NCBI GenBank assembly: GCA_019753235.1
Contig: JAIELF010000026.1
Coordinates: forward strand, 1-64,000
Reading direction: 5' to 3'
Origin: a bacterium
GTDB taxonomy: Bacteria > Planctomycetota > Planctomycetia > Kolteriales > Kolteriaceae
DNA length: 64,000 nt
In this document: positions 42,282-58,031 of the stretch, piece after piece
Layout: the number at the start of each line of letters is the position of its first letter
How positions within the stretch are numbered: position 1 is the first letter of the stretch
Made by a program: the position numbers and the translations under genes
The notes under the pieces: model-generated
What the model was told of the DNA's origin: nothing
The model's database searches: none
The model's input: the letters and a program-made list of their open reading frames with translations, nothing else

Positions 42282-42534
42282 TCTATAGGGTGTCACGGAC
42301 CGAATGGTTTCTCCTGATTTGAGATCCACCACATGCAGAAGACTCTTGTACTTGCGGTGAGCATCTCCGGGCATCTATCCTGACACCTACCGATGTTCCG
42401 AAAACACTAGCCGTTCGTCTAAGTGGCAAGGGGCCGCGAGGGTTCGCTCGCGAATCCTGCGCACTTGTCAACGAGCGAGTCTCTTGTCCCTCGTGAATAT
42501 CAGTATTCTCTCTACGAGATTGAAGGAACATACG

Positions 42535-44088
42535 ATGTCCCCCGTCCGGTCACGCGCTGTCGATAAGCTTCCTGTTGCGCGGTCATTCGAATTGCTCGAA
42601 GATCGCCTGGCGATGTCCGCATCGACGCCGGTCGTCCTGCCGACGGTCGTGGCGAGTCTGCCTGATGCAGGGGCATTTTCGAACGTGGTGCAGACGACGG
42701 CGCAGTTGGCTGATCCTGCCGGCAACGGGCTGCGAGCCTATGGTCAAGCGATCCCCGCAAGCAAGTGGGAAGACGTTCTGCGTTCGATCCATTCTCAAGC
42801 CCCCACGTTTGCTTTGACCGGTGCGATCCCAGGAGGACTCAACCCGCAGGTCACGCCGCTTGCCGGTGGGCTTAAGTTCTCTTCTTTTCAAGATGGACTG
42901 TGGTGGTTTGACATACCCGTGTCACTCCGCCCGACACTCTTCAGCAATACCAACCTTTCTCCCGCTTCCTTGAACGTTCGACAGTTCACCCAGTTCGGCG
43001 TCAATATCGACCGCGCGGTGCCGGGGGACTGGAACGGTGATGGTCTGGATGAAGTCGGGGTCTTTCGACAGGGGACCTTCTTTCTCGACGCCAACGCTTC
43101 AGGGCGATGGGAAAGCCCCACCGTCGATCGCCAATTTCAGTTTGGCGTCGCCAATGACATACCGGTGTCAGGAAGCTGGTCGTTCCTGGGTCGCGATAGT
43201 GTCGGTGTCTTTCGCAATGGATGGTGGTATCTCGATGCCAATGGAAACAACCGTTGGGACAGCGGTGATCGATCGATTCCGTTCGGCTCGCCGGGCGACA
43301 TTCCCGTCGTCGGCGATTGGAACGGAGATGGTCGCGACGAGATCGGTGTGGTTCGGAAAGAGACGTCGGCCAACGGGTTCATCTATCGGTGGTACTTGGA
43401 TTCCAACCAGATTGCAGGTCATCAATGGACCGACATCAGTTTCGTGTTCGGCAACGGCGAAGGTATCCCTGTCACGGCGGACTTCGATGGTGACGGGCGC
43501 ACCGATATCGGTCTTTACCGGCGAGGTCGCTGGCTGATCGATACGGGCATTGCCTCGCGGGGGCAGTATCAACCCCTGACGCTCGATTTCAATGTTGGTC
43601 CGGATACCGGTCAGATCTTTCCGATGATCGGCCGGGGGCCGGGACTTTATGATGTCTCCCGCCGAGTCTCGCTCTTTGCGCCCTACCGGTTCGGATATGC
43701 CGAGAATTCCTCTTCCACGACGGCGGTTCCGCCTCTGCCGGCAGGGGTTTCTTATCCGACTTTTCCTAGGCCGATCTATCTGCCGGCGGGGACGGCGCCG
43801 GCCGGTCGCATCGCGACTCTTCCCAATCCCTCTTTTCCGCCGAATCAACAACCTTCCCCTTTGGGGCCCGCGGGAACCAATTCGATTCTCCCATCGTCCA
43901 ATAGGGAAGTGAGTTCGGTTGGGCAGCCGTTACCCGTCGAACGGTCGCGACCTTTGACGAGTGGGTCCATTCTCGGTCTCGACGCAAACATAGGTTCGGG
44001 TCTGTTCGTAAAAGAGGGATCGATCACACCTGTCGAACGGGCTGGTGCGATTGATGAGATTCTGTCGACGGATTTGCTGCTGGTATAA
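42535..44088 (+). CDS. LEDRL-motif protein with FG-GAP-like repeats (short paralogue)
   Basis: 517 residues from ATG 42535, with AAGGA upstream. The N-terminus has the planctomycete LEPR-XLL-like motif FELLEDRLAMSAS (LEDRL at 21-25), found at the start of many large exported proteins of this phylum; no classical signal peptide is present. Residues about 155-345 hold four or five repeats of about 45 residues with a calcium-loop core, D-W-N-G-D-G-x-D-E, followed by GVFRQGTFFLDAN and FGVAND types. This resembles the FG-GAP/VCBS propeller pattern. A Pro/Ser-rich region follows, and the C-terminus is VERAGAIDEILSTDLLLV. The next gene encodes a much larger protein with the same N-terminal motif and the same repeat family. 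Confidence 0.75.
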   Translation: MSPVRSRAVDKLPVARSFELLEDRLAMSASTPVVLPTVVASLPDAGAFSNVVQTTAQLADPAGNGLRAYGQAIPASKWEDVLRSIHSQAPTFALTGAIPGGLNPQVTPLAGGLKFSSFQDGLWWFDIPVSLRPTLFSNTNLSPASLNVRQFTQFGVNIDRAVPGDWNGDGLDEVGVFRQGTFFLDANASGRWESPTVDRQFQFGVANDIPVSGSWSFLGRDSVGVFRNGWWYLDANGNNRWDSGDRSIPFGSPGDIPVVGDWNGDGRDEIGVVRKETSANGFIYRWYLDSNQIAGHQWTDISFVFGNGEGIPVTADFDGDGRTDIGLYRRGRWLIDTGIASRGQYQPLTLDFNVGPDTGQIFPMIGRGPGLYDVSRRVSLFAPYRFGYAENSSSTTAVPPLPAGVSYPTFPRPIYLPAGTAPAGRIATLPNPSFPPNQQPSPLGPAGTNSILPSSNREVSSVGQPLPVERSRPLTSGSILGLDANIGSGLFVKEGSITPVERAGAIDEILSTDLLLV

Positions 44089-44431: not shown

Positions 44432-47400
44432 ATGGGTCTTTTTTCGAGACGAGATCGGTCTAAGCCCTCGACCAGCAAGTCGTCCCCCAAGGTGACCCGG
44501 TTTCAAGGGGGGATCGAGGCTCTCGAAGACCGGCTGGTGATGGATTACACGGTCAGCTTCGCCGCCGACACGTTGAGCATTGTCGCTTCGAACGGTTCCA
44601 ACAGCGATCTTGGCCTGACCTACACCGGCGGCGTCTTCACGCTGACCGAACTGGGTGGCTCGGCAGGCATCTTTACAGGGAGTAGCCTGCCAACGGGGGT
44701 GACCATCGGTCCTACCTCTCAACTGCAAATTGCCGACAGCTTCTTTTCTGGCCCAACACGACGAGTCGAGGTCAGTCTCGGCGACGGTCAAGATCAAGTT
44801 CAAAACCAGGGGATCACCGGCACCCGCGACCGCGTTTTCATCGACATGGGGTCGACCTCGGACCCAAGCCAGTTGACCGGCACGACGGGCAACGATTCCT
44901 ATGACATCCTCGGGGCCAACTCGCTCATCACCTCGGGGATCACCTTCACCAACCTTACCATCGTCAATGCCGGCGGCGGCGCGGACGCCGTTCGAGGGCT
45001 GGTCGCCGCGAACGACGCTTTCACACTCATCGGTCCCAACGAAGGACAGTCCGAGGGAATTCGATTTCAACAAATCGAATCGTTCGATGCTCGGTCGGGG
45101 CCGGCCAATCTGATCCTTGATTCGGGTCTCGTGGGGACGACAACGCTTGCATTTAGCGCTGTGACCAATGCGGTTACGGCCCGGGGTATCAGCTTCACTC
45201 AGATCGCTCAGATCGACGTAAACAACAGAGCGATCACGCAGACCGGCTTGACCCGGGTTCAGTTGCAGGTGGTTCCTGTTTCCGGTGGAGGTTCGCAGCC
45301 TCGACCCATCGGCAGCGACATCCTACTAAGAAATCTTACCTCGCTAAACATCGACAGCATTTTCGGGACGGCCGGCGACGACGCGGTCCTACTCACCGGT
45401 GATAACCTGATGTCGATCGGCGGCGTGAACTACACGGGTGTCGTGCAGTTCGATGGAACGACGGGAAATGATCGCGTCGATCTGAGCACTGGTCCAGCCA
45501 GCCGCAATATCACCTTCACATCAGGCGATATCAATAACCGGATCAACAATCTCGCGAACGTCAATTTCTTCAACGTCGATCGACTTCGCCCCATTAACAT
45601 CGACGTATCGACGCGTCGCACGGTGAACCTTGTCAACCCAACGACGGCATCGACCACGGGAAACGCTGGTGAAGTTCTTGTGAACGGCATAGTGTACGAG
45701 AATGTCGTTAATGTGCAGAATTCGCCTAGCGTCGTCGGGTCGGCCGGCAGCGATGCGTTGGTGGTGACCGCCAACAATCAACTTCTCCTCAACCAAGTGA
45801 ACTTCACGGGGGTGACGTCGTATTCGGCAGGGGCCGGCAATGACAGCGTCGTCTACGATTTCGTGACGCCGCCAACGTACAGTTTCGATTTCGCGGCAGC
45901 CAATGGCGTGAATGGTCAGTACTCGGCATTTGGTATTGATTACACGTCGGTGGAGCAGATCAACACGCTGGGCAATCCGGTGACGATTACGAATGCCGCC
46001 TCGCTCGGTCGGCAGGGGAATCGAGCCTACAGCGCCAATGGCATTTCGTTTTCGAATGTCAACTCGGCAACGGCGACTTCGCTCTTTGGGACGGCCGGCG
46101 ACGATCAGTTTTTTCTGAATACCAACGGCACCGTTGCGTTCTCGGCCACGCCGGTCGGCGATACCATCATCACGCTGTTGGGGAATCGGGCGGTCTTGGG
46201 GGAAGGGGGCAACGACCAGGTCTTCGGCCCTGCGAGCACCGCCAACGATCGATACCAGTTCCTTTCGACCTCGGCGGCATTTCGCACTCCGGGCGGCTTT
46301 CTCGTCGGACGAATCGAGACGCTGACCTCGGCGACGGCCAGCGACACCTTATTCGGAACGAACGGCGTCGATACGTTTATCTTTGCAGGGACCAACGCGC
46401 TACAGGTCGGAGCCGCTTCCGGGTTCCCACCGGTTATTCCGACAACCCGTTTGGTGAGCTTTGCCGAGATCAACGGGGGCGACGGCGATGATTCCTTTTC
46501 GTTCACTAACGATGGCTCTTGGACGGGCAACCTCGTCGGCGGCAATGGTTCCGACGCCATTCGCGGGACCGACAACGATACGACCTACACCATCACTGGA
46601 CTCACGGGCAGTCAAATCACCCGCCTCGTCGGTGTTGTCGGTTCGCAAGTCCCGCAGCTTGCCGGTACGTTCGCGCAGTTCGAATCCGTTCAAGGAGGCG
46701 CGGGAGTTGATACGTTCCTCTATCAAGGCGGAGCGTTCAGCTCGATCGCACTCAATGGCGCCGGCCAGCCGACCGCTGCAAACGCCATTACCAATACTGA
46801 TCGAGGCGACGTTCTCGATTTGTCGTCTCTGTCAACGGGTGTGAACCTGAGTCTTGATGTCGGATCGCAGCCCGGCGGCGACGCCCGCGTGGTGCAAGTC
46901 GGAACCAGCGACTTCTTCGGCATCAGGAACTTTGAAACATACATCGGAACCAATCAGGCCGACCGCTTCGTTCGCTCTCAACAAGCGACTGGCGTTGTTC
47001 AAGTCATGGATGGGCGCGGCGGCGCGGATCTTTTTCAGATCGGAAACGGCTCGCCTGACATCGTCATCTACGATGCTCTCGACCAGATCAGCTCGATCGA
47101 CGCGACGCTCGATACGCTTATCGCCAGCCCCTCGGCGCCCGGGACGCCGCCACCGACGCCCGGCGTGTTTTCGCCCACGCCCAACCCGGTCGGTGGATTT
47201 AATCTTTGGCTATTGTTGCAGTCGACCCAGCCGGGAGGCTTCATCACGGCAAATAATTTTCCGCTGATTGCCGAGGCCTATGTTCGTTATCTCTATCGAC
47301 TCTTGTTGGGGGGGGATCCGAATACAACCGATGGACAGCGGATCGTCTCCTTCTGGACACAACGATTAACGAACCAGTCGCTATCGTCTTTCGATCTCGT

Positions 47401-48949
47401 GGGGTCGTTCCTGACGCAGAATGTGGCCGACATCGGTGGAACGAATCCGCCCGCGCCGCAGTATTTTGCGGACTACTTCTTCAATGGTTTTGCGCAGCGC
47501 GAATACGGAAGACCGTTTGCCGGCCAGGATACCACGCGATTGGCTAACTTGGTGAAGGGGGGCGCCACGCTTGAATCCGCCGCCCGCACGGGCAATTTCC
47601 GCGCAGAGTCTCCGGCGCTCGCGCAGGCTTGGATTCGAGAGATCCTCTACAACATTCTTTCTCCTCAAGAGAATCAGGCTCTTCGCGCGGACGCCTCGAG
47701 GGCCTTTTTGGTCGGCGCGCCAACACGAACCACGTACGAGCTCTTCGTCGCCACCACGCTCCGCTTCCTGGTGCAAGAGCAGCGAAGCTGGTTGGGGACA
47801 TTGCAGCGAGTCGTCAACAGCCTCGACGGGCTTCGCTCCTCCATTCGCGTGGCGGCGGCCGAGAACCCCGGCAGGTTTGCCGGCTTGATGGCCGATGCAA
47901 ACCTTACCAATCTTAAGCTCGGCTCGCTCGAAGCGAGTGGTGTGTTCATCGATAATCCACCGGGCCGAGGACGCGAACTTTCTCCCAATGGGATCTCCTT
48001 TGGCGTGTCGACCGATACTCCCACGCCGGGTGATTGGACCGGTGATGGCCGAGAGGAGTTCGGCGTCTTTCGACAGGGAACGTGGTTCCTCGATACCAAT
48101 GGCACCAATGGATTTCAGGCAGCGGATACCTCGGTCGCGTTCGGCGTCGGTAGCGACATCCCGATGCCCGGCAACTGGAACGGCGGCAATCAAACCAATC
48201 TCGGTGTCTTTCGCAATGGAACCTGGTTCCTGGACACCAATAGAACGCTTGGTTGGCAATCGACCGATACGGCGATTCAGTTTGGCGTTGCCGGCGATAC
48301 CCCGATTGTGGGCGACTGGAACGGAGATGGTGTATCCGATTTGGGCGTGCGACGAGGCAATGTCTGGTTTCTGGACACCAACGGCATCCGAGGCTGGCAG
48401 GGAAACGACACGACTTTCGCGGATACCTTCGGTCCAGGTCAAATTCTGTCGGCCGATTTCAATGCTGATGGAAGAGATGATATCGCCGTCATCAATGGTA
48501 ACACCTGGCGGATCGATTTCGACGGACCCTTCGGCTACCAGCCGGGCACGGATGTCGAACTTCAGTTCGATGCCAACGGCGGCAAGCCATTTACTTTAAC
48601 ATCGGGTTCCCCAACGCTGGTCCGTCAGTTCGGAGCCGGCGCGGGGAGTTTGTCCGCGGCGGTACGTTTGCTCGGCCCGCTCGTTCTGCCGACGAGCAAT
48701 GTTTCCACCAATGCTTTTGCCGGCCCGACGACCAACAGCAATGGTGGATCAAATACGACAGGCAACTTGGCCGACTCGAACGGCCCTGCAGGTCAACCGA
48801 CATTACTGGGAAGAAGCCGACCGACTTTTGGTTCCGCCGGCGTCTCCGCAACGGCATCAGTCGAAGGATCATCACGCGATCGCATCGACGCCTTGCTGTT
48901 AGCCAAGGCGAAAAGCGACGTCATCGATCAGGTCTTCGAAGATATTTGA
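44432..48949 (+). CDS. Giant LEDRL-motif exported protein, 1505 aa
   Basis: Start ATG 44432 is fixed by GGAGGAG. The N-terminus is basic (FSRRDRSKPSTSK) and carries IEALEDRLVMDYT, with LEDRL at 31-35. Residues about 40-900 are beta-rich with irregular repeats of about 90 residues of the type LFGTAGDDQFFLN, TGNDRVDLS and GNGSDAIRGTDND. These look like degenerate haemolysin-type calcium-binding (RTX-like) or bacterial beta-helix repeats. Residues about 940-1130 are helical (YVRYLYRLLLGG, VGSFLTQNVADIG) and resemble a DUF4214 module. Residues about 1183-1380 carry four FG-GAP-like repeats with DWTGDGREEFGVFRQGTWFL, of the same family as the preceding protein. The C-terminus ends in a short acidic helix. 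It is probably displayed on or released from the cell surface. Its stop is 1 bp from that of the convergent amidohydrolase gene. Confidence 0.8.
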   Translation: MGLFSRRDRSKPSTSKSSPKVTRFQGGIEALEDRLVMDYTVSFAADTLSIVASNGSNSDLGLTYTGGVFTLTELGGSAGIFTGSSLPTGVTIGPTSQLQIADSFFSGPTRRVEVSLGDGQDQVQNQGITGTRDRVFIDMGSTSDPSQLTGTTGNDSYDILGANSLITSGITFTNLTIVNAGGGADAVRGLVAANDAFTLIGPNEGQSEGIRFQQIESFDARSGPANLILDSGLVGTTTLAFSAVTNAVTARGISFTQIAQIDVNNRAITQTGLTRVQLQVVPVSGGGSQPRPIGSDILLRNLTSLNIDSIFGTAGDDAVLLTGDNLMSIGGVNYTGVVQFDGTTGNDRVDLSTGPASRNITFTSGDINNRINNLANVNFFNVDRLRPINIDVSTRRTVNLVNPTTASTTGNAGEVLVNGIVYENVVNVQNSPSVVGSAGSDALVVTANNQLLLNQVNFTGVTSYSAGAGNDSVVYDFVTPPTYSFDFAAANGVNGQYSAFGIDYTSVEQINTLGNPVTITNAASLGRQGNRAYSANGISFSNVNSATATSLFGTAGDDQFFLNTNGTVAFSATPVGDTIITLLGNRAVLGEGGNDQVFGPASTANDRYQFLSTSAAFRTPGGFLVGRIETLTSATASDTLFGTNGVDTFIFAGTNALQVGAASGFPPVIPTTRLVSFAEINGGDGDDSFSFTNDGSWTGNLVGGNGSDAIRGTDNDTTYTITGLTGSQITRLVGVVGSQVPQLAGTFAQFESVQGGAGVDTFLYQGGAFSSIALNGAGQPTAANAITNTDRGDVLDLSSLSTGVNLSLDVGSQPGGDARVVQVGTSDFFGIRNFETYIGTNQADRFVRSQQATGVVQVMDGRGGADLFQIGNGSPDIVIYDALDQISSIDATLDTLIASPSAPGTPPPTPGVFSPTPNPVGGFNLWLLLQSTQPGGFITANNFPLIAEAYVRYLYRLLLGGDPNTTDGQRIVSFWTQRLTNQSLSSFDLVGSFLTQNVADIGGTNPPAPQYFADYFFNGFAQREYGRPFAGQDTTRLANLVKGGATLESAARTGNFRAESPALAQAWIREILYNILSPQENQALRADASRAFLVGAPTRTTYELFVATTLRFLVQEQRSWLGTLQRVVNSLDGLRSSIRVAAAENPGRFAGLMADANLTNLKLGSLEASGVFIDNPPGRGRELSPNGISFGVSTDTPTPGDWTGDGREEFGVFRQGTWFLDTNGTNGFQAADTSVAFGVGSDIPMPGNWNGGNQTNLGVFRNGTWFLDTNRTLGWQSTDTAIQFGVAGDTPIVGDWNGDGVSDLGVRRGNVWFLDTNGIRGWQGNDTTFADTFGPGQILSADFNADGRDDIAVINGNTWRIDFDGPFGYQPGTDVELQFDANGGKPFTLTSGSPTLVRQFGAGAGSLSAAVRLLGPLVLPTSNVSTNAFAGPTTNSNGGSNTTGNLADSNGPAGQPTLLGRSRPTFGSAGVSATASVEGSSRDRIDALLLAKAKSDVIDQVFEDI

Positions 48950-48950
48950 T

Positions 48951-50228
48951 TCATTCGGGTCTCGTCGAGGCAAGCGTCCCTGCCTTGATGAGTCCCCCTT
49001 GCATCACCGCAAGGAAACGATCACGCTGCTGTAAAAGAGTGATGTCCGTCAACACGTTCCCAGGGACGATAAGTAAATCGGCCAGCTTGCCGACTTCGAG
49101 CGTGCCGATCTCGCTGGCTCGGCCAAGGATCTCGGCACCCCGTTTGGTGGCGCACGTGATCGTTTCCATGGTTGAGAAACCAACGTCATTCACGAAGAAG
49201 GCGAGTTCCTTCGCGTAGTCGCCGTGCGGATTCCAGGCGAAGCCATAATCGCCGCCCATGCCGATTCGGCCCCCCGCCTTGAGGATTTTGAGGGCACTCT
49301 CCGCGCCCGCCTCGAGCGTCTCTTGGTGCCCGTCGATCACCTCTTGAGGCATGTCAAACGAAGGACCATGTTCGACACTGGCCTTCTCAAAGTAGAGGGC
49401 AGGAACGACGGGGACATCGCGTGCCAGCAGCAGATCGAGCGCTTCATCATCCATGAAAGTCCCATGTTCGATGGCATCGTAACCAGCGCGAAGAGCATTT
49501 TTGATCCCCTCGGTTGCTCGGCAATGACCCGTAACTTTGAGTTTATGATTGTGCGCGGTCTGCACGACCGCGTGCATCTCTTCGAAGGTCATGCAAAGAG
49601 TGTGATGATCGTTGACATTGGGGGCTGCTGCGTCGCCGGTGGGATAGGTCTTGACCCATTCGACGCCGTCTTTGACGAGTTTACGAACCGCGGAACGAGC
49701 TTCGTCGGGGCCACTGACTAAGAGAACCAAGCCTTCCATGCCGATGCGACGAAAGTCGGGATTCCAATCCATCAATCCGCCGACGCCACAAATCTCTCGA
49801 CCACTGGCGGCCAGTCGGGGCCCCAGCGTGATGTCGTCTTCGATCGCCTTTTTCAGCCAGACATCAATGTTAAAGAGACTTCCACCACTGCGCGCAGCAG
49901 TGTAACCACACTCGAGCGCAAGCTTCGCATTCGAAGCGGCCAAAAGCGTGACGTACTCGACGGGATACTTGATGTCGAGATCTTCAAGTTGCGCGACATT
50001 GAAATAAGTGGGATGAAAATGAGCTTCCACCAAGCCCGGCATCACGGTGTGGCCGGTCGCGTCAATGACCGTGATTTTGGGGTCGAGAGAAAGCGACTCA
50101 CGAACCGGGCCGACATAGCGAATGCGCCCCTGGTCGATCTCAATATCACTCCGCTCGAGCGCTCGCTGACCGGTCCCATCGACCAGCATTCCATGGCGAA
50201 TAAGAAGCGTTCTCGTCCCGAGCTTCAT
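48951..50228 (-). CDS. Amidohydrolase family protein (imidazolonepropionase-like)
   Basis: 425 residues from ATG 50228, after GGGGGGA; an open extension to 50297 lacks a ribosome binding site. TIM-barrel metal-dependent hydrolase. Metal ligands seen: HFH in GLVEAHFHPTY, probable carboxylated Lys in WVKTYPTG, His in VTGHCRA, His in AIEHGTF and Asp in GGDYGFAWNPHG. The N-terminal beta-sandwich strand LLIRHGMLVDGTG and the C-terminal EIGTLEVGKLADLLIVPGN are typical of the group that includes prolidase-like Xaa-Pro and Xaa-Arg dipeptidases and imidazolonepropionase-related enzymes. No signal peptide is seen. The substrate cannot be assigned. Confidence 0.88.
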   Translation of the reverse strand: MKLGTRTLLIRHGMLVDGTGQRALERSDIEIDQGRIRYVGPVRESLSLDPKITVIDATGHTVMPGLVEAHFHPTYFNVAQLEDLDIKYPVEYVTLLAASNAKLALECGYTAARSGGSLFNIDVWLKKAIEDDITLGPRLAASGREICGVGGLMDWNPDFRRIGMEGLVLLVSGPDEARSAVRKLVKDGVEWVKTYPTGDAAAPNVNDHHTLCMTFEEMHAVVQTAHNHKLKVTGHCRATEGIKNALRAGYDAIEHGTFMDDEALDLLLARDVPVVPALYFEKASVEHGPSFDMPQEVIDGHQETLEAGAESALKILKAGGRIGMGGDYGFAWNPHGDYAKELAFFVNDVGFSTMETITCATKRGAEILGRASEIGTLEVGKLADLLIVPGNVLTDITLLQQRDRFLAVMQGGLIKAGTLASTRPE

Positions 50229-50517
50229 CCAATCCCCCCTGATGGTCCCCTCGACGTGCTCTAGACGATGTTGCCCGGCCGACGCGGCCCGATGCAAGCC
50301 TCATTTCCATTCCTTTTGCATCAACGCCCGCGACTATTGATGTTCGCGCAGGAAAAGCCGCCGGTGACCGAATCACCGGGGGCGTTTCGCAAGCGAATTT
50401 GCCCCCTTACTGCCGCGGCGGGGCGTCTTTTGTTTGGTACGGATGAGTACGAGAGGCGTGTTGACAAAAGGAAGTAAAGCCGATGGCGGGCTATCATTTC
50501 TCTCTTTTGTCGGCCGA

Positions 50518-51411
50518 CTAGATTTGCGCGGGAAGGTCGGGGGGATGGATCGATTCCAAAAATGGAACCAGCGTTGCGAGGTAACTCTCGCGGGCCAAAC
50601 TGTGAATTTGATGCCCCACCTCGGGATATCGGACCACCGTCAGGTCATGAATCGATTCTCGCAACGTTTCAGCATCAGCATCGCGAAGCATGCCACCCCG
50701 GTCTGGGTCGGCCTGCATCAAAAGAACTGGAACGTCGATCGACGACGCCAGCGTTTTCCAGTCATAGCCAGCAAGCCAATCTCCTTCGACGATCGGCGTC
50801 AAGCATTCGGGATCCATCGTCGCCAGCGTGGAAGCATGGAAGCGAATCGATGCTTCGTCGCGCACGTCTCCTAGTCGAGCACTCTGCCCCGTTTGTGGAT
50901 TATCGAGGCGCACCTCCGCGAGTTGCTTGGCAAGGTCGGCGACCGAGTGCCATCGTTCTCCTTTCAAGATGTCGCGAAACTGAAGGAACTGTGAATGAAA
51001 GACAGTCTGCTCGACATTCTTGCCAAGCGTCTCGAAGGGAGGGTCCTCCATGATGACGCCGAGTGCTTGCTCGCGCAGACGCGATGCCGCCGCCAGCGCC
51101 ACCATCGCCCCTAATGAGTGCCCCACCAAGATAACCGGGCCGGCAATGACATCTCGGGCGATGTGAACGGCATCGTCAATGTAATTCACCACGCGATAAC
51201 CTCGCGGCGACCGGGCCGATCCGCCATGACCACGAAAATCAAGTCCCCACGGGGTGAAGCGGGCGGCCAGTCCCGACATCACCAGTGACCAGTCTCGATG
51301 CGTTCGAGTCACGCCATGCAGAAACAGTAGCGTGGGCCCGCTCGGCTCGATGGGTCCGACACATTGAATCGGCCCCGTCGAAGTCGCTTGGGCGATCGTT
51401 CGCCACTTCAT
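50518..51411 (-). CDS. Alpha/beta hydrolase
   Basis: 297 residues. Classical fold: oxyanion loop LFLHGVTRTHRDW, DFRGHGGS, nucleophile elbow VGHSLGAMVAL near residue 115, acid in LLMQADPDRGGM and the catalytic His in PEVGHQIHSL. Cytoplasmic by lack of a signal. The pattern fits small-molecule esterases, epoxide hydrolases or C-C hydrolases; the Ser nucleophile excludes haloalkane dehalogenase and epoxide hydrolase chemistry. It is transcribed divergently from the giant ThuA/cytochrome gene, with 146 bp between the starts. Confidence 0.85.
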   Translation of the reverse strand: MKWRTIAQATSTGPIQCVGPIEPSGPTLLFLHGVTRTHRDWSLVMSGLAARFTPWGLDFRGHGGSARSPRGYRVVNYIDDAVHIARDVIAGPVILVGHSLGAMVALAAASRLREQALGVIMEDPPFETLGKNVEQTVFHSQFLQFRDILKGERWHSVADLAKQLAEVRLDNPQTGQSARLGDVRDEASIRFHASTLATMDPECLTPIVEGDWLAGYDWKTLASSIDVPVLLMQADPDRGGMLRDADAETLRESIHDLTVVRYPEVGHQIHSLARESYLATLVPFLESIHPPDLPAQI

Positions 51412-51557
51412 TGATGAATTCTCCTCAAGCCATTCGTGCCCTGCAAAAAAGAGACGTCTTCCGCGAGTGATCGTTGTACGACTTCGTTTCCGCGTCGGTC
51501 GGCCGTTGCCCCGCGCGGCGGCCTTTGAGATGATGGATGGCGAGCGAGGAGGGAGTG

Positions 51558-54500
51558 ATGTTTCGATGGTTGACTACAATCGGCGGATGTGTCGCGCTCG
51601 TACTAGCATGCTCACCGGAGTTGATGGCCGACGACGCGCCAAAGAGAATTCTGGTTATTGCTGGGAAGAAGAGTCACGGACCAGAGGGGAACGGCATTCA
51701 TGACTACGGATGGAGTGCTCGGCTCATCAAGGTGATGCTCGATCACTCGAACGTTCGCGATCAGGTCTTGGTCGACGTCGCTACTGATGGCTGGCCCAAA
51801 GAGGCGTCCTCCCTCCAACAGGCCGACAGCATCATGATCATCTCCGATGGACGTGATGGGGAACTCTTTGAGGAAGCTCCTCATCTCTCTTCGCCTGAAC
51901 ATGTCGAGTTGATCTCGAAGGAGGTCCGACGGGGTTGCGGCTTGGTCACCTTTCACTTTTCGACTTTTGCGCCCGACCGGTATGCCGATCAGATTCTCGA
52001 CTGGGTTGGTGGCTACTTTGATTGGGAGACCAACGGCAAGCGGGATTGGTACTCGGCCATCCAAGTGGCTGATACGGCGGTCGCGATTGCTTCGCCTGAG
52101 CATCCCGTAAGTCGAGGGGTGATGCCATTCACGCTGAAGGAGGAGTTCTACTTCAACCTTCGGCTTCATCCGTTGGTCGGAGGTATGACACCTCTTCTCC
52201 GGGTGCAGGCACTTCCGGGACGGGATCCGACGGGCAACATCGTGGCGTGGGCTCGGCAGCGTCCGCAAGGGGGACGGGGCTTTGGCACGACGTGCGGGCA
52301 CTTCTACGAGAATTGGCGACAAGACGATTTTCGGAAGCTGATTCTCAACGGGCTCGTATGGTCGGCGGGCGTCGATATTCCCCCCGACGGCGTCAAGGCC
52401 CGGTTCTATGAAAGGGCCGAGATCGATCAGGCTCTGTCGGGCAAAAACGGCGTTGATCGCGCTCAGCTCGATGAATCACCGATTCGAGTTCTGCTCCTTG
52501 CTGGAAATGAATCCCATCAGTGGCACAACTGGAAGAAGACGACTCCCGCGATCGTGAAACTCCTTCAGCGAGATCCGCGCATCCAAGTCGACGTTCGGAC
52601 CGACATTGAGTCGCTAGGAGATCTCAACCTGGCCGACTTTCAGACGGTTCTGCTCAATTATTGCAACTGGCAAGACCCGACCGGGCTAAGCGACAAAAGC
52701 AAGCGCGCTTTCGTTGCGTACCTCGAACAAGGAGGGGGTCTGGTGATCGTTCACTTCGCCAACGGAGCGTTTCATTTCTCGCTGCCGAGCGCGGGGGCAT
52801 CTGACTGGCCTGAGTATCGCCGAATCGTTCGGCGGGTTTGGGATCATCAAGGCAAAGGTGAATCGCAAAGCGGACACGATGCCTTTGGTCTATTTGAAGT
52901 TAAGCCGACCAGTCTCCCGCACCCGACGACGGCAGGTCTCGCGCCATTCACGGTCACCGACGAACTCTACTTTCGTCAAGCGGGGGATGAGGCGATCGAG
53001 CCGCTGTTGCTGGCCCATTCCAAAGTGACCGATCGTGATGAGCCCTTGGCGTTTTCCTACCGGTATGGAAAGGGTCGCATTTTTCAGACACTGTTGGGGC
53101 ACAGCGAGCAGACTTACGAAACGTTTGAAGCAAGGGAGATTCTTCGGCGCGCGGTTGCTTGGTGTGCGAACCGACCGGTCGTCGCGCGGACAAAGGATTT
53201 CGACCCCGACGTCGCGCAGGGACTCCCTCCCAAGGGGGAGGTTTTGGCCGAGGGACGTTTCGGTAAGGCAATCGATGCGCGGGTAGCGTCGTGTGGGATG
53301 TCGTCCTTTTCCACGCCGAAGGTCGAGCAGCTTCACGCGCGGGTTTGGGTTCGGCTCGAATCGGCCAAGGGGTACAACATCCTGCTCGCCTATCAGCCGA
53401 AATCGAGCCCGATTCATTGGGAATTATTCACCGAGCCGGGGACCGGACAGCTTACCCTCTACTCGCCCAAGATGACCCCCGACCATGTCCGCGCGGAGAA
53501 TCGGATCACCGACGGACGTTGGCATATGCTCGATGTCTCGATGACTCGCGCTGAGGTTCGGCTTCGCGTGGATGGGGAATCCCCCTTGACGACGGTCGTC
53601 GAGAATGGGCCGACCATGACCGAGGATGGCCCCCTTTCGGTTGGCTCTTTGGTGGAAGGGGGGCTTGGTTGCGACGGATGGTTGGATGATCTCCATTGGC
53701 GTGATGCCCCTTTCTCGAAGGAAGTGCCGACCGAACCGATGCCAGTCGACTCTCATTCGCTGGGTCATTGGCGATTCGACAATATCATCGACAACAACCA
53801 GTTGCCTGATGAGTCGGTCCATCATCGTCCGATGTTGGTTCGCGATCCCACAAAGGTGGCCGAGATCCTTGGGCCTGTTGAAGATCCCCATTTCTTAGAG
53901 GGCTCGGTCGGCTTTCATTGGCGCGAGAACGACTCGGCAGATGACCGTTGGAATCAAGCGGATGTCGGTCCATTTCTGGCAAGTGTGCTTCCTCTTCCGA
54001 CCGGTGGGCTGATCGCCCGCGGGCTTTCCATCGCGCTTCCGGGTTCGATGAAAGGAGGAGTTGCCTACGATCTGGCAACGATGTCGCTGGTCGCGGGTTG
54101 GACGGGTGGATTCCTTCGCTTCGACCCGGCTCGGCATGGTCTGATTACGTCTCCGCGAATTCAGGGGAAAGTGGCCTTCGCCTTTCCACCTCGCGCGGAC
54201 CCCTCGATCAGTGGAAAAAATGAGTATCGTGGGCTTTATCGGGTGGGACGCGAAGTCGTTCTCGCGTCGACGATCGACGCGACCGGCATCTTAGAGTGGC
54301 CGAGCTTTCGAGTGACGGAAGGTCGGCCGAGTTTTCTTCGAACATGGGAAGTCGCCCCCAGCGAGAAGCCGACGCGCATCTACGTCGCCCAGGGTGAATC
54401 GATCACATTGTCTGCGGAGGGAAGAGCCGCAACGGTCGGTCATTCTCTCTTTCGATTGCAAGGAGATGGGCGCTGGTACGTTGATGAGAAGGCTCCTGAT

Positions 54501-57500
54501 TCTCTTTGGTTAGAGATCCCGCCCGGAAAGAACCCTCGGCACGCTCGTACCCATTGGACCGAGGCCCCTTCTAGTCGTGACATACCAATGTCACTCATTC
54601 CAGAATCCGATCCGATCGAATCGCTTGCGGAGAAGATTCGTTCCACGAAGCCAATCTGGAACGAGGAAGTGAGCACCGTGATGGTCCCTTCGGACGAGCA
54701 GGGTCCCTACGCGATCGATGACTTTCCCCTTCCTCATCAGAACCCATATCGTTCGCTGTGCTTTCCATCGGATCATGATTTTCTTCCCAACGGTGAGCTG
54801 GCGGTGTCCATGGTGCATGGTGACGTCTGGATGGCTCGGGGTGTCGGTTCATCGAAAGGGACGATTCATTGGAGGCGCTTCGCCAGCGGTCTGCATCAAC
54901 CGCTTGGCCTCAAGGTCAAGGAGAATGATGTTTACGTTTTGGGCCGAGATCAGATCACGCGACTGGTTGATCGCGATCAAGATGGCGAAGCAGACTTCTA
55001 CGAAAACTATTTCGCCAACCCGGCCGCGTCGGTCGGTGGGCACGATTTTGAAGCCTGTCTGGAGACTGATCCTGAGGGTCGCTTTCTCTTCGTCAGTGCC
55101 ACTCAGGGACTTGTCCGTGTCCGTCCAGATCGCCGAGGCGTCGACATCCTGGCGACCGGTTTTCGCAATCCCAACGGGTTAGGTGTTCGGCCAGCATCGA
55201 TGGGAAAAGAAGATTGGATTACCGTCTCGCCGCAAGAGGGTAATTGGACTCCCTCCTCATCGATCAATCTTGTTCGGCCCGGCGGATTTTATGGCTTTCG
55301 TTCAGGCAAAGAGGGAGAGCAAGTGCCGACGTCGATCGATCCGCCTCTCTGCTGGATACCTCGTTTGCTCGATAACTCGAGCGGCAGTCAAGTTTGGACC
55401 GATGCCAAGCGATTCGGGCCGCTCGGCGGGCAGATGTTGCACCTCTCCTACGGGCAATGCCGCGTTCTCTTAGCGATGACGGAACAGGTCGGAGCCACCT
55501 GGCAGGGGGGCGTGGTGGCGCTTCCTTGGGAGTTTCGTTCCGGCATCATGCGCGGCCGAGTCAATCCGGCGGACGGTCAACTCTATCTGTCGGGACTTAA
55601 GGGGTGGGTCTCCGCCGCCGTCGACGACGGATCGCTTAGCCGGGTTCGTTACACAAACAAGCCGTTCGCTTGGCCTCGCTCGGTCGAGACGTGGGCCAAT
55701 GGTTTGTTGATCCATTTCTCTGAACCGATCGATGCCCGCATCAGCAGCGATCCCGATCGATACTCTCTATCGGCATGGAACTATCGATACAGCGCTCAAT
55801 ATGGTTCCCCCGAGATCAATCCGCGCGACCACCAACAAGAGGGAAAAGAAGAGTGGACCATCACCTCTGCCACGGTACTTGAAGATGGTCGATCGGTCTT
55901 CTTAGAAGTTCCGTCGCTTACGCCCGTGATGCAGCTTTTGCTCGCGATGAAGATCGAGTCGGCCCGGCACGATCCGATTCGGACGACACTCGCGTACACG
56001 ATCCACACTCTACCGACCCGCGCGATGCCCGACGAAGAAATCGTTCGCCGTCCCCGCCCCGGAAATCTTCCACCAGCGATTGAATCACGTCTCCGCGCGG
56101 GCGTTGCATGGAAGGTGGAGCAGGATGCCCGTCGTGATGTGGCGATCACAAGGTCGTGGGCTTGGGTGATACCCAAGGGGACGGCGCTGGCCCATGGAAT
56201 CAAGCCTGGTCCTTTTCGCGCGATGGCGGTCGGTTACGTCAAGGCGCCCGAGTCGGCCCACTATCGATTCCGATGGAGCAGCACCGGTCGGGCCAAGCTG
56301 ATGCTGGGTCAACAGCCAGCCATCGAATTCGATTCTTCGGCCGGGGCAACCTCTTCTACTGTCTCGTTGCATCGGGGTTACAACGCCTACCGGATCGAGT
56401 GCGAGTCGGCCGAGCATGGAGAGAATGTTCTGCGGATGCTGTGGAGTTCTGCTGGCTTTGCCGAGGAGCCGATCCCCCCCACACTTCTTTTCTTTGATAG
56501 CCAAGACGAGAACGTCTCGGCCGCGTCCAAGCGGACGAAGGGGCTCACGCTCTTAGAAGAGCATCGCTGTTGGAACTGTCATGCGGGCCGACCTGCGGGA
56601 ATTTCGCAGGGCCCCGACCTCGCAGGGATCGGTTCGCGATTGACGAAGTCTTGGATGACGGAATGGTTGGCGGATCCCAAACAACTCCGCGCCCAAGCCA
56701 CCATGCCTTCGTTCTTTCGGGCGGGAAAGGGGACTGACGATCAAGATCTTGCCGACGTGGTGGCGTATTTAGCGTCGCTGACGTCGCCGAAGAATGCCCA
56801 AAAGGAACTGCCTGAGGCGACGGAACCTGACCACGCGTTCGTTGATCTGGGTTGCCTTGCCTGTCACACGCTCGAACCGAGTGACGCGTTGGGACACGAT
56901 CGAATTTCGTTGGCTCGCGTGGGGTGGAAGTTTCAGCCCGGCGCGTTTGCCTCCTATTTGAAGGATCCCGCCGCCCATCACGCGACAACGCGCATGCCGA
57001 ACTATCATCTGACCGATGATGAGATCGGCTCGCTTGTATCGACGTGGAAGAAGAGTGAGCCTTCTATCAAGGATGAACGTCCTCTGCCCGCCGGGGATAC
57101 GCGCCGGGGCAAGGAGCGGTTCCTCTCGATCGGCTGCTCCCAGTGTCATAGGCTTGACACCGATCGACCCGCGACCAACCAGTTAGCGAGTCCGTTAAGC
57201 CGATCGAGTAAGTTGGACCGGGGTTGTCTTGCCGAGACGCCCTCGCCGAGCCTGCCTTGGTACGACTTCACTCCCACGGAGCGAGAAGCGATCGCGTCTT
57301 ACTTGGCGAGTCAAGAAGAGACTGCACCGACGCCATCGTTAGTGATGGAGAGTCGTCGGCATTTCGAGCAGCATCGATGTCATGCCTGTCATTCTCGCGA
57401 TGGTGTCACGAGTCCTCGAGCGTCGATTGTTCTGGAGGAGTCTCCTTCGGGCCTGCCTCCGGAGCCTATTCCCGATCTAACTTGGGCGGGCGAAAAACTT

Positions 57501-58031
57501 CGGACAAACTATGTGAGCGATTTGCTTCTGGGAAAGACCGGGACGCAGGCTCGTCCCTGGTTAAAGGGGCGGATGCCCGCCTTCTCCCATGGGGCGAATG
57601 ATCTGGCGTCGGGGATGGCGGCAGAGTTCGGCGTGAGTCTAACTCTAGAGGAATGGGCGTTCTCGGCCAAGCCGGACTTGACGAAGGTCGGCAAGGAACT
57701 CACGGGCCTTTCGACCGGGCTCGACTGTCGGCAATGCCATCCCGTGGGGGCCGCGCAGCCGATCGGCGACGATCGAACGCAGTTGGCGCTCGGGATCAAT
57801 TTCGCACAGATCAAAGATCGGCTTCGGTACGAGCACTATCGTCGCTTTGTTCTCGATCCGCCCAGGTACGATGTTTCGACGCGGATGCCCAAGCTATCGC
57901 TTGATGGTCGCACCACCAAACTTAAGAATGTTCTGGGGGGTAACGCCTCGCTGCAATTCGAGGCGATCTGGCACTACATTCAATCCCTCGATTCGGCCGA
58001 GATCCCCTCTACGTCGCGGGCAAATCCCTGA
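51558..58031 (+). CDS. Giant secreted protein: two ThuA domains, beta-propeller, five haem c motifs
   Basis: 2157 residues from ATG 51558, 4-6 nt after GGAGGGAG; ATG 51537 lies before that site. A signal peptide ends near ELMADD. In order: ThuA-like domain 1 (about 28-275, RILVIAGKKSHGPEG); ThuA-like domain 2 (about 309-540, RVLLLAGNESHQWHN); a concanavalin-like domain (about 560-715); a DUF6797-like region (about 780-875, DVGPFLASVLPLP, AGWTGGFLRF); a beta-propeller of the PVC sorbosone-dehydrogenase type (about 1055-1370); a PA14-like region (about 1540-1640); and five CxxCH motifs near 1671, 1766, 1860, 1940 and 2056 (CWNCH, CLACH, CSQCH, CHACH, CRQCH), with Met ligands in TMPSF, RMPNY, RMPAF and RMPKL. 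ThuA relatives bind or process sugars. A periplasmic redox enzyme for sugar derivatives is likely. Confidence 0.85.
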   Translation: MFRWLTTIGGCVALVLACSPELMADDAPKRILVIAGKKSHGPEGNGIHDYGWSARLIKVMLDHSNVRDQVLVDVATDGWPKEASSLQQADSIMIISDGRDGELFEEAPHLSSPEHVELISKEVRRGCGLVTFHFSTFAPDRYADQILDWVGGYFDWETNGKRDWYSAIQVADTAVAIASPEHPVSRGVMPFTLKEEFYFNLRLHPLVGGMTPLLRVQALPGRDPTGNIVAWARQRPQGGRGFGTTCGHFYENWRQDDFRKLILNGLVWSAGVDIPPDGVKARFYERAEIDQALSGKNGVDRAQLDESPIRVLLLAGNESHQWHNWKKTTPAIVKLLQRDPRIQVDVRTDIESLGDLNLADFQTVLLNYCNWQDPTGLSDKSKRAFVAYLEQGGGLVIVHFANGAFHFSLPSAGASDWPEYRRIVRRVWDHQGKGESQSGHDAFGLFEVKPTSLPHPTTAGLAPFTVTDELYFRQAGDEAIEPLLLAHSKVTDRDEPLAFSYRYGKGRIFQTLLGHSEQTYETFEAREILRRAVAWCANRPVVARTKDFDPDVAQGLPPKGEVLAEGRFGKAIDARVASCGMSSFSTPKVEQLHARVWVRLESAKGYNILLAYQPKSSPIHWELFTEPGTGQLTLYSPKMTPDHVRAENRITDGRWHMLDVSMTRAEVRLRVDGESPLTTVVENGPTMTEDGPLSVGSLVEGGLGCDGWLDDLHWRDAPFSKEVPTEPMPVDSHSLGHWRFDNIIDNNQLPDESVHHRPMLVRDPTKVAEILGPVEDPHFLEGSVGFHWRENDSADDRWNQADVGPFLASVLPLPTGGLIARGLSIALPGSMKGGVAYDLATMSLVAGWTGGFLRFDPARHGLITSPRIQGKVAFAFPPRADPSISGKNEYRGLYRVGREVVLASTIDATGILEWPSFRVTEGRPSFLRTWEVAPSEKPTRIYVAQGESITLSAEGRAATVGHSLFRLQGDGRWYVDEKAPDSLWLEIPPGKNPRHARTHWTEAPSSRDIPMSLIPESDPIESLAEKIRSTKPIWNEEVSTVMVPSDEQGPYAIDDFPLPHQNPYRSLCFPSDHDFLPNGELAVSMVHGDVWMARGVGSSKGTIHWRRFASGLHQPLGLKVKENDVYVLGRDQITRLVDRDQDGEADFYENYFANPAASVGGHDFEACLETDPEGRFLFVSATQGLVRVRPDRRGVDILATGFRNPNGLGVRPASMGKEDWITVSPQEGNWTPSSSINLVRPGGFYGFRSGKEGEQVPTSIDPPLCWIPRLLDNSSGSQVWTDAKRFGPLGGQMLHLSYGQCRVLLAMTEQVGATWQGGVVALPWEFRSGIMRGRVNPADGQLYLSGLKGWVSAAVDDGSLSRVRYTNKPFAWPRSVETWANGLLIHFSEPIDARISSDPDRYSLSAWNYRYSAQYGSPEINPRDHQQEGKEEWTITSATVLEDGRSVFLEVPSLTPVMQLLLAMKIESARHDPIRTTLAYTIHTLPTRAMPDEEIVRRPRPGNLPPAIESRLRAGVAWKVEQDARRDVAITRSWAWVIPKGTALAHGIKPGPFRAMAVGYVKAPESAHYRFRWSSTGRAKLMLGQQPAIEFDSSAGATSSTVSLHRGYNAYRIECESAEHGENVLRMLWSSAGFAEEPIPPTLLFFDSQDENVSAASKRTKGLTLLEEHRCWNCHAGRPAGISQGPDLAGIGSRLTKSWMTEWLADPKQLRAQATMPSFFRAGKGTDDQDLADVVAYLASLTSPKNAQKELPEATEPDHAFVDLGCLACHTLEPSDALGHDRISLARVGWKFQPGAFASYLKDPAAHHATTRMPNYHLTDDEIGSLVSTWKKSEPSIKDERPLPAGDTRRGKERFLSIGCSQCHRLDTDRPATNQLASPLSRSSKLDRGCLAETPSPSLPWYDFTPTEREAIASYLASQEETAPTPSLVMESRRHFEQHRCHACHSRDGVTSPRASIVLEESPSGLPPEPIPDLTWAGEKLRTNYVSDLLLGKTGTQARPWLKGRMPAFSHGANDLASGMAAEFGVSLTLEEWAFSAKPDLTKVGKELTGLSTGLDCRQCHPVGAAQPIGDDRTQLALGINFAQIKDRLRYEHYRRFVLDPPRYDVSTRMPKLSLDGRTTKLKNVLGGNASLQFEAIWHYIQSLDSAEIPSTSRANP

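Follow-up and report, generated by a model that had tools for sequence, protein, structure and literature searches.

The window analysed here, a 64,000-nucleotide stretch of a planctomycete genome of the Kolteriaceae (contig JAIELF010000026.1, assembly GCA_019753235.1, positions 1 to 64,000), carries on its forward strand a gene for a 2157-residue protein in which a signal peptide, two ThuA domains (ThuA1 and ThuA2), a laminin-G-like domain, DUF6797, a propeller, a PA14 domain and five CxxCH (haem c) domains follow one another in that order. The single reading frame given in the first-pass annotation of the gene was confirmed: it is open to the stop at 58031 from 51558, or from an alternative in-frame ATG at 51537 that would add 7 residues. 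The signal peptide it listed also held, a hydrophobic, signal-like N-terminus being seen by eye in this protein and in most homologues. Sequence and predicted structure show the domains and folds, that the fusion is conserved and that the ThuA pair is associated with dehydrogenases; in the list, PQQ is pyrroloquinoline quinone, GSDH is the Pfam family PF07995 and MP is a Met-Pro pair that would supply the methionine ligand of a haem.

51558..58031, +, whole gene, 2157 residues (open frame; homologues of equal length and layout)
51558..51632, +, signal-peptide-like N-terminus, residues 1-25 (by eye; hydrophobic N-termini in homologues too)
51636..52427, +, ThuA1 domain, residues 27-290 (Pfam ThuA; own clade in tree)
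52476..53180, +, ThuA2 domain, residues 307-541 (Pfam ThuA; profile match to PDB 4e5v, 2.9e-30; Foldseek match to 4e5v; own clade)
53235..53747, +, laminin-G/concanavalin-like domain, residues 560-730 (Pfam Laminin_G_3; Foldseek laminin G/neurexin)
54060..54296, +, DUF6797 Pfam match, residues 835-913, inside a beta-rich region of about 800-1045
54693..56027, +, propeller of PQQ sugar dehydrogenase fold, residues 1046-1490 (AlphaFold2 and PDB structure match)
Within the propeller, candidate active-site His1162 and Arg1203-Asn1204 (motif register with the GSDH of this genome, weak score)
56055..56507, +, PA14 domain, residues 1500-1650 (weak Pfam match at 1546-1620)
56568..56582, +, haem 1, CWNCH, residues 1671-1675, ligand M1716 (this and the other haems: motif and homologue comparison)
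56853..56867, +, haem 2, CLACH, residues 1766-1770, ligand M1813
57135..57149, +, haem 3, CSQCH, residues 1860-1864, no MP ligand
57225..57227, +, invariant Cys1890 in a GCL motif, candidate sixth ligand or neighbour of haem 3
57378..57392, +, haem 4, CHACH, residues 1941-1945, ligand M2006
57726..57740, +, haem 5, CRQCH, residues 2057-2061, ligand M2110

The full-length fusion is present in about 25 of the 298 sampled genomes of the window's class at 36-48% identity, which rules out an assembly artefact or a unique chimera and runs counter to the initial impression that the architecture is uncommon. Twenty-two full-length homologues were extracted (loci L007-L028), in which ThuA1, ThuA2 and the propeller are the most conserved parts. 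The halves are split as adjoining genes, ThuA1-ThuA2-LamG and DUF6797-propeller-PA14-five-haem, in genomes G222, G183 and G240, and at about 30% identity the second half is found by itself in Verrucomicrobia, Acidobacteriota, Balneolaceae and Omnitrophota; eight second-half loci have a common neighbour cluster, the tested member of which is a Gfo/Idh/MocA oxidoreductase. At two loci (L084:5849-11062 and L085:8133-13451) ThuA1-ThuA2-LamG has a different fusion partner, made up of a DUF7133-type propeller, HEAT repeats and a single haem. At L036:8938-15395, on a contig shared with L090, the fusion appears as two overlapping frames, representing either an assembly frameshift or two genes. The open-access literature yielded no description of the fusion family, and likewise nothing relevant on the architecture, DUF6797 or DUF7133; it is a conserved fusion family, undescribed in the literature searched, with component parts of known kinds.

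Pfam analysis of the protein detected two ThuA stretches (1.1e-43) and Laminin_G_3 at residues 596-720, and in a whole-genome scan each ThuA domain separately exceeded the curated cut-off of PF06283 (97.2 and 64.2 versus 33.4 bits), bearing out the two tandem ThuA-like domains proposed earlier. The same domain search recovered the proposed concanavalin-like, DUF6797-like and PA14-like parts, with DUF6797 (PF20601) scoring 47.5 bits against a cut-off of 24.9. An AlphaFold2 model of residues 26-1040 had a predicted local distance difference test (pLDDT) score of 87 and a predicted template modelling score (pTM) of 0.46, the low pTM meaning that the mutual placement of the domains is not predicted. 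Foldseek matched this model to ThuA-like proteins and laminin G domains, with the ThuA/GATase-like fold represented by 4e5v (template modelling (TM) score 0.72), 4jqs and 1t0b, each match spanning one of the two ThuA domains. The two ThuA domains have 46 and 61 invariant positions, respectively. A tree built from 73 ThuA domains grouped every first domain in one clade and every second domain in another (support 100/99), and profile scores part ThuA1 from ThuA2 by hundreds of bits. A recent tandem duplication is ruled out, as ThuA1 and ThuA2 each stay in their own clade in all forms, fused or not.

For the second half, an AlphaFold2 model of residues 1046-2157 (pLDDT 84.8, pTM 0.81) had as its best PDB matches PQQ sugar dehydrogenases (2ism, TM 0.70; 3a9g, 0.69; 7cdy) and AA12 pyranose dehydrogenase; Hedgehog-interacting protein (7pgm) was also a structural match. 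The predicted structure thus upholds the propeller named in the first-pass annotation, with Pfam below threshold. The candidate active-site residues His1162 and Arg1203-Asn1204 do not vary among 23 sequences and, in a low-scoring alignment, are in register with the GSDH of the same genome; in AA12 pyranose dehydrogenase, His363 and Arg430-Asn431 lie at the PQQ site (PMC6881789).

The C-terminal region contains five CxxCH motifs, compared with 0.008 expected by chance from composition, and exactly five are present in each of the 22 full-length homologues. Pfam Cytochrom_C matched residues 1661-1741, and a profile of the haem block matched the cytochrome subunit of fructose dehydrogenase (7w2j_C, 3.9e-5). 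The earlier claim of five motifs with matching MP ligands stands for the motifs and for the ligands of haems 1, 2, 4 and 5, which have the CxxCH and downstream Met of class I cytochromes c; haem 3 has no MP, ruling out five His/Met haems, and has instead the invariant Cys1890. This residue is kept in 23 of 23 full-length sequences, with an equivalent in the Verrucomicrobia and Omnitrophota relatives, and sequence comparison makes it a candidate to ligate haem 3 at the sixth position or to lie next to it. In Balneolaceae and Acidobacteriota locus L054 the position is mostly occupied by residues that cannot ligate. A Met/Cys exchange at haem 3, which would have been evidence that the Cys is a ligand, was looked for and is not supported: the Balneolaceae and Acidobacteriota sequences have no MP in register. 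A paralogue on contig 8 of the same genome (L086:10502-14473) has a permuted order, with PA14 and five haems ahead of a DUF7133 propeller; its middle haem is also without MP, and GCM is found at the Cys1890 position.

Outside the window's class, in Planctomycetota and Paenibacillus, the ThuA pair is found as a protein of its own or as two neighbouring genes; in other families of the phylum it forms an open frame of about 520-640 residues, or two neighbouring genes in genome G314. In other planctomycetes and three Paenibacillus its cassette partners are a divergent AraC regulator and a zinc-type dehydrogenase of the medium-chain dehydrogenase/reductase (MDR) superfamily (loci L042-L044, L114, L116, L117, L120 and L121); in L116 and L117 the two coding regions overlap. 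The cassette's ThuA pair is homologous to that of the fusion, with equal domain order and 47-54% identity, whereas its dehydrogenase is soluble and encoded by a separate gene, and there are no haems. The MDR gene of the cassette (E<=1e-25) is present in eight of the nine planctomycete genomes with a haem-free ThuA pair, adjoining the pair in seven, compared with 21 of 392 genomes of the phylum sample and 0 of 296 genomes of the window's class. This absence is suggestive, though only that, of a soluble dehydrogenase replaced by the haem-propeller half. At Paenibacillus loci L057-L059 a lone ThuA2 is followed by a short-chain dehydrogenase/reductase (SDR), and nearby genes were read by eye as sugar ABC permeases. 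In genome G161, a 1281-residue LVIVD-repeat protein with nine CxxCH motifs (L094:10686-14531) is divergent from a stand-alone ThuA pair.

Two genes divergent from the fusion in the window are candidate partners.

50518..51411, -, alpha/beta hydrolase (Pfam; adjoins ThuA-pair fusions in other genomes, of lineages f1, f5 and f13)
48951..50297, -, amidohydrolase (Pfam; conserved beside the hydrolase)

Both recur by ThuA-pair fusions in the f1, f5 and f13 genomes, including both DUF7133 forms. The hydrolase is found in 83 of 296 class genomes and is linked to a ThuA-pair gene in 7, which weakens the case for an obligate partner; being mostly unlinked, it is a candidate rather than a defining one. 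Further upstream, the forward strand encodes a 1505-residue protein (44432-48949) with only a weak FG-GAP match, and its neighbour (42484-44088) is FG-GAP-like too.

From domains, predicted folds and gene neighbourhood, and with a probability of about 0.5, the protein may be a secreted sugar or polyol dehydrogenase that carries its own electron-transfer wiring and also processes what it has oxidised; the substrate, order of steps, cofactor and ThuA reaction are the parts that we infer. Carbohydrate binding is the probable role of the laminin-G-like and PA14 domains; the propeller, of the PQQ sugar dehydrogenase type, would oxidise a sugar, polyol or glycoside at a hydroxyl group, and the five c-type haems would feed the electrons into the respiratory chain. 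The ThuA1-ThuA2 pair would then convert the keto-sugar product, likewise outside the cytoplasm, in the way that ThuA acts with a dehydrogenase in the thuAB route to 3-keto derivatives of trehalose and maltitol (PMC6515357). A periplasmic, sugar-oxidising role is preferred because of the PQQ sugar dehydrogenase fold, the ThuA fold, the five haems and the stand-alone ThuA pair beside a soluble dehydrogenase, and the protein probably serves, outside the cytoplasm, to link the oxidation of sugars with respiration. The sugar-oxidising, electron-draining periplasmic machine of the first-pass annotation therefore remains the best-supported explanation on its folds, haems and cassette; "self-contained" is doubtful, given carriers without known PQQ synthesis genes and a gene divergent from the hydrolase and amidohydrolase in several lineages, and nothing specific points to the sugar lactone that had been offered as substrate.

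Several results weigh against this interpretation. No Pfam propeller model reached threshold, GSDH giving no match for the propeller segment, and hhalign to the single own-genome GSDH sequence scored low. PqqC was found in 0 of 21 carriers searched, with the same family model matching in another planctomycete as a positive control, and PqqE was above cut-off in 0 of 21; PQQ, the presumed cofactor, is therefore not made by the known route in these carriers, and would need to be scavenged or replaced by another cofactor. The MDR gene is absent class-wide, beyond the carriers, and Agd3 shows that a ThuA-like domain may serve as a carbohydrate-binding module (CBM) without catalysis (PMC7229062). 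PQQ may be scavenged, a different cofactor may be used, or the propeller may be non-catalytic. In the last case the propeller would be a binding or scaffold module rather than a quinoprotein, the haems would exchange electrons with another redox partner and only the ThuA pair would act on sugars, an arrangement that would fit the lack of known PQQ synthesis in all 21 carriers searched and for which the same-fold, non-enzymatic Hedgehog-interacting protein is a precedent. We consider it unlikely, since His1162 and Arg1203-Asn1204 are unvaried, since the propeller is one of the best-conserved regions of the chain, and since some bacteria that benefit from PQQ do not make it (PMC4133262).

The Agd3 precedent bears on the proposal that the ThuA domains are carbohydrate-binding or structural and the protein is a multi-CBM dehydrogenase, which would also be in keeping with the other CBM-like domains (LamG and PA14) in the same chain and with the CBM-cytochrome fusions common in bacteria of the Planctomycetes-Verrucomicrobia-Chlamydiae (PVC) group (PMC5615132). 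Dense conserved motifs are, however, kept in both ThuA domains, and free ThuA pairs occur beside a dehydrogenase in cassettes that lack a CBM, making this proposal distinctly unlikely. It is very improbable that the middle haem, lacking Met and accompanied by the invariant Cys, is itself the catalytic site, with the propeller supplying substrate binding: Cys1890 is retained in every full-length sequence and in distant relatives, and the non-ligand residues of Balneolaceae and Acidobacteriota would leave an open site, but some lineages lose the Cys and keep the rest, and the Cys could equally be a redox-tuning ligand or no ligand at all.

The sugar dehydrogenase interpretation has precedents in known systems. 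Soluble/aldose PQQ sugar dehydrogenases and the AA12 enzyme CcPDH share the propeller fold and perhaps the candidate His and Arg-Asn motif, and in AA12, too, a PQQ propeller and a cytochrome domain are parts of one enzyme (PMC6881789, PMC4332668); the present protein differs in falling below the Pfam GSDH threshold, in its fused ThuA pair, in carriers without known PQQ synthesis and in having five c-type haems where AA12 has one b haem. The ThuA/ThuB route of rhizobia and Agrobacterium likewise pairs a ThuA domain with a sugar-oxidising partner (PMC6515357), but that partner is cytoplasmic, whereas here two distinct ThuA subfamilies stand in tandem in a secreted protein with a haem-linked propeller. 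In Caulobacter, LacABC and DUF1080 proteins provide periplasmic lactose oxidation, by a sugar 3-dehydrogenase, followed by 3-keto-glycoside processing, the hydrolysis probably being periplasmic too (PMC9007349); the protein families differ, and no DUF1080 was among the Pfam matches of this protein. The PVC-type PSCyt/PSD and DUF7133-haem proteins are also cytochrome, carbohydrate-binding and partly propeller fusions, for which a role in carbohydrate metabolism has been proposed (PMC5615132), but neither PSCyt nor PSD was among the Pfam matches here, and the five cytochrome domains are class-I-like.

Tentatively, and at less than even odds, the fused and unfused forms can be seen as one two-ThuA keto-sugar module with interchangeable dehydrogenases, either a soluble MDR or SDR enzyme or, in planctomycetes, a fused, secreted, haem-wired propeller; the latter would be a one-polypeptide extracytoplasmic sugar-oxidation pathway, in which the middle haem, linked to a cysteine, would be a new kind of element for tuning or gating. 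No settled account of the ThuA reaction was found in the literature searched, though ThuA is widespread, and the fusion, together with the soluble operon version and its discrete dehydrogenase, offers a compact system for assaying it. For some of the numerous planctomycete cytochrome fusions, the family suggests a hypothesis in which carbohydrate oxidation outside the cytoplasm would be wired directly to respiration.

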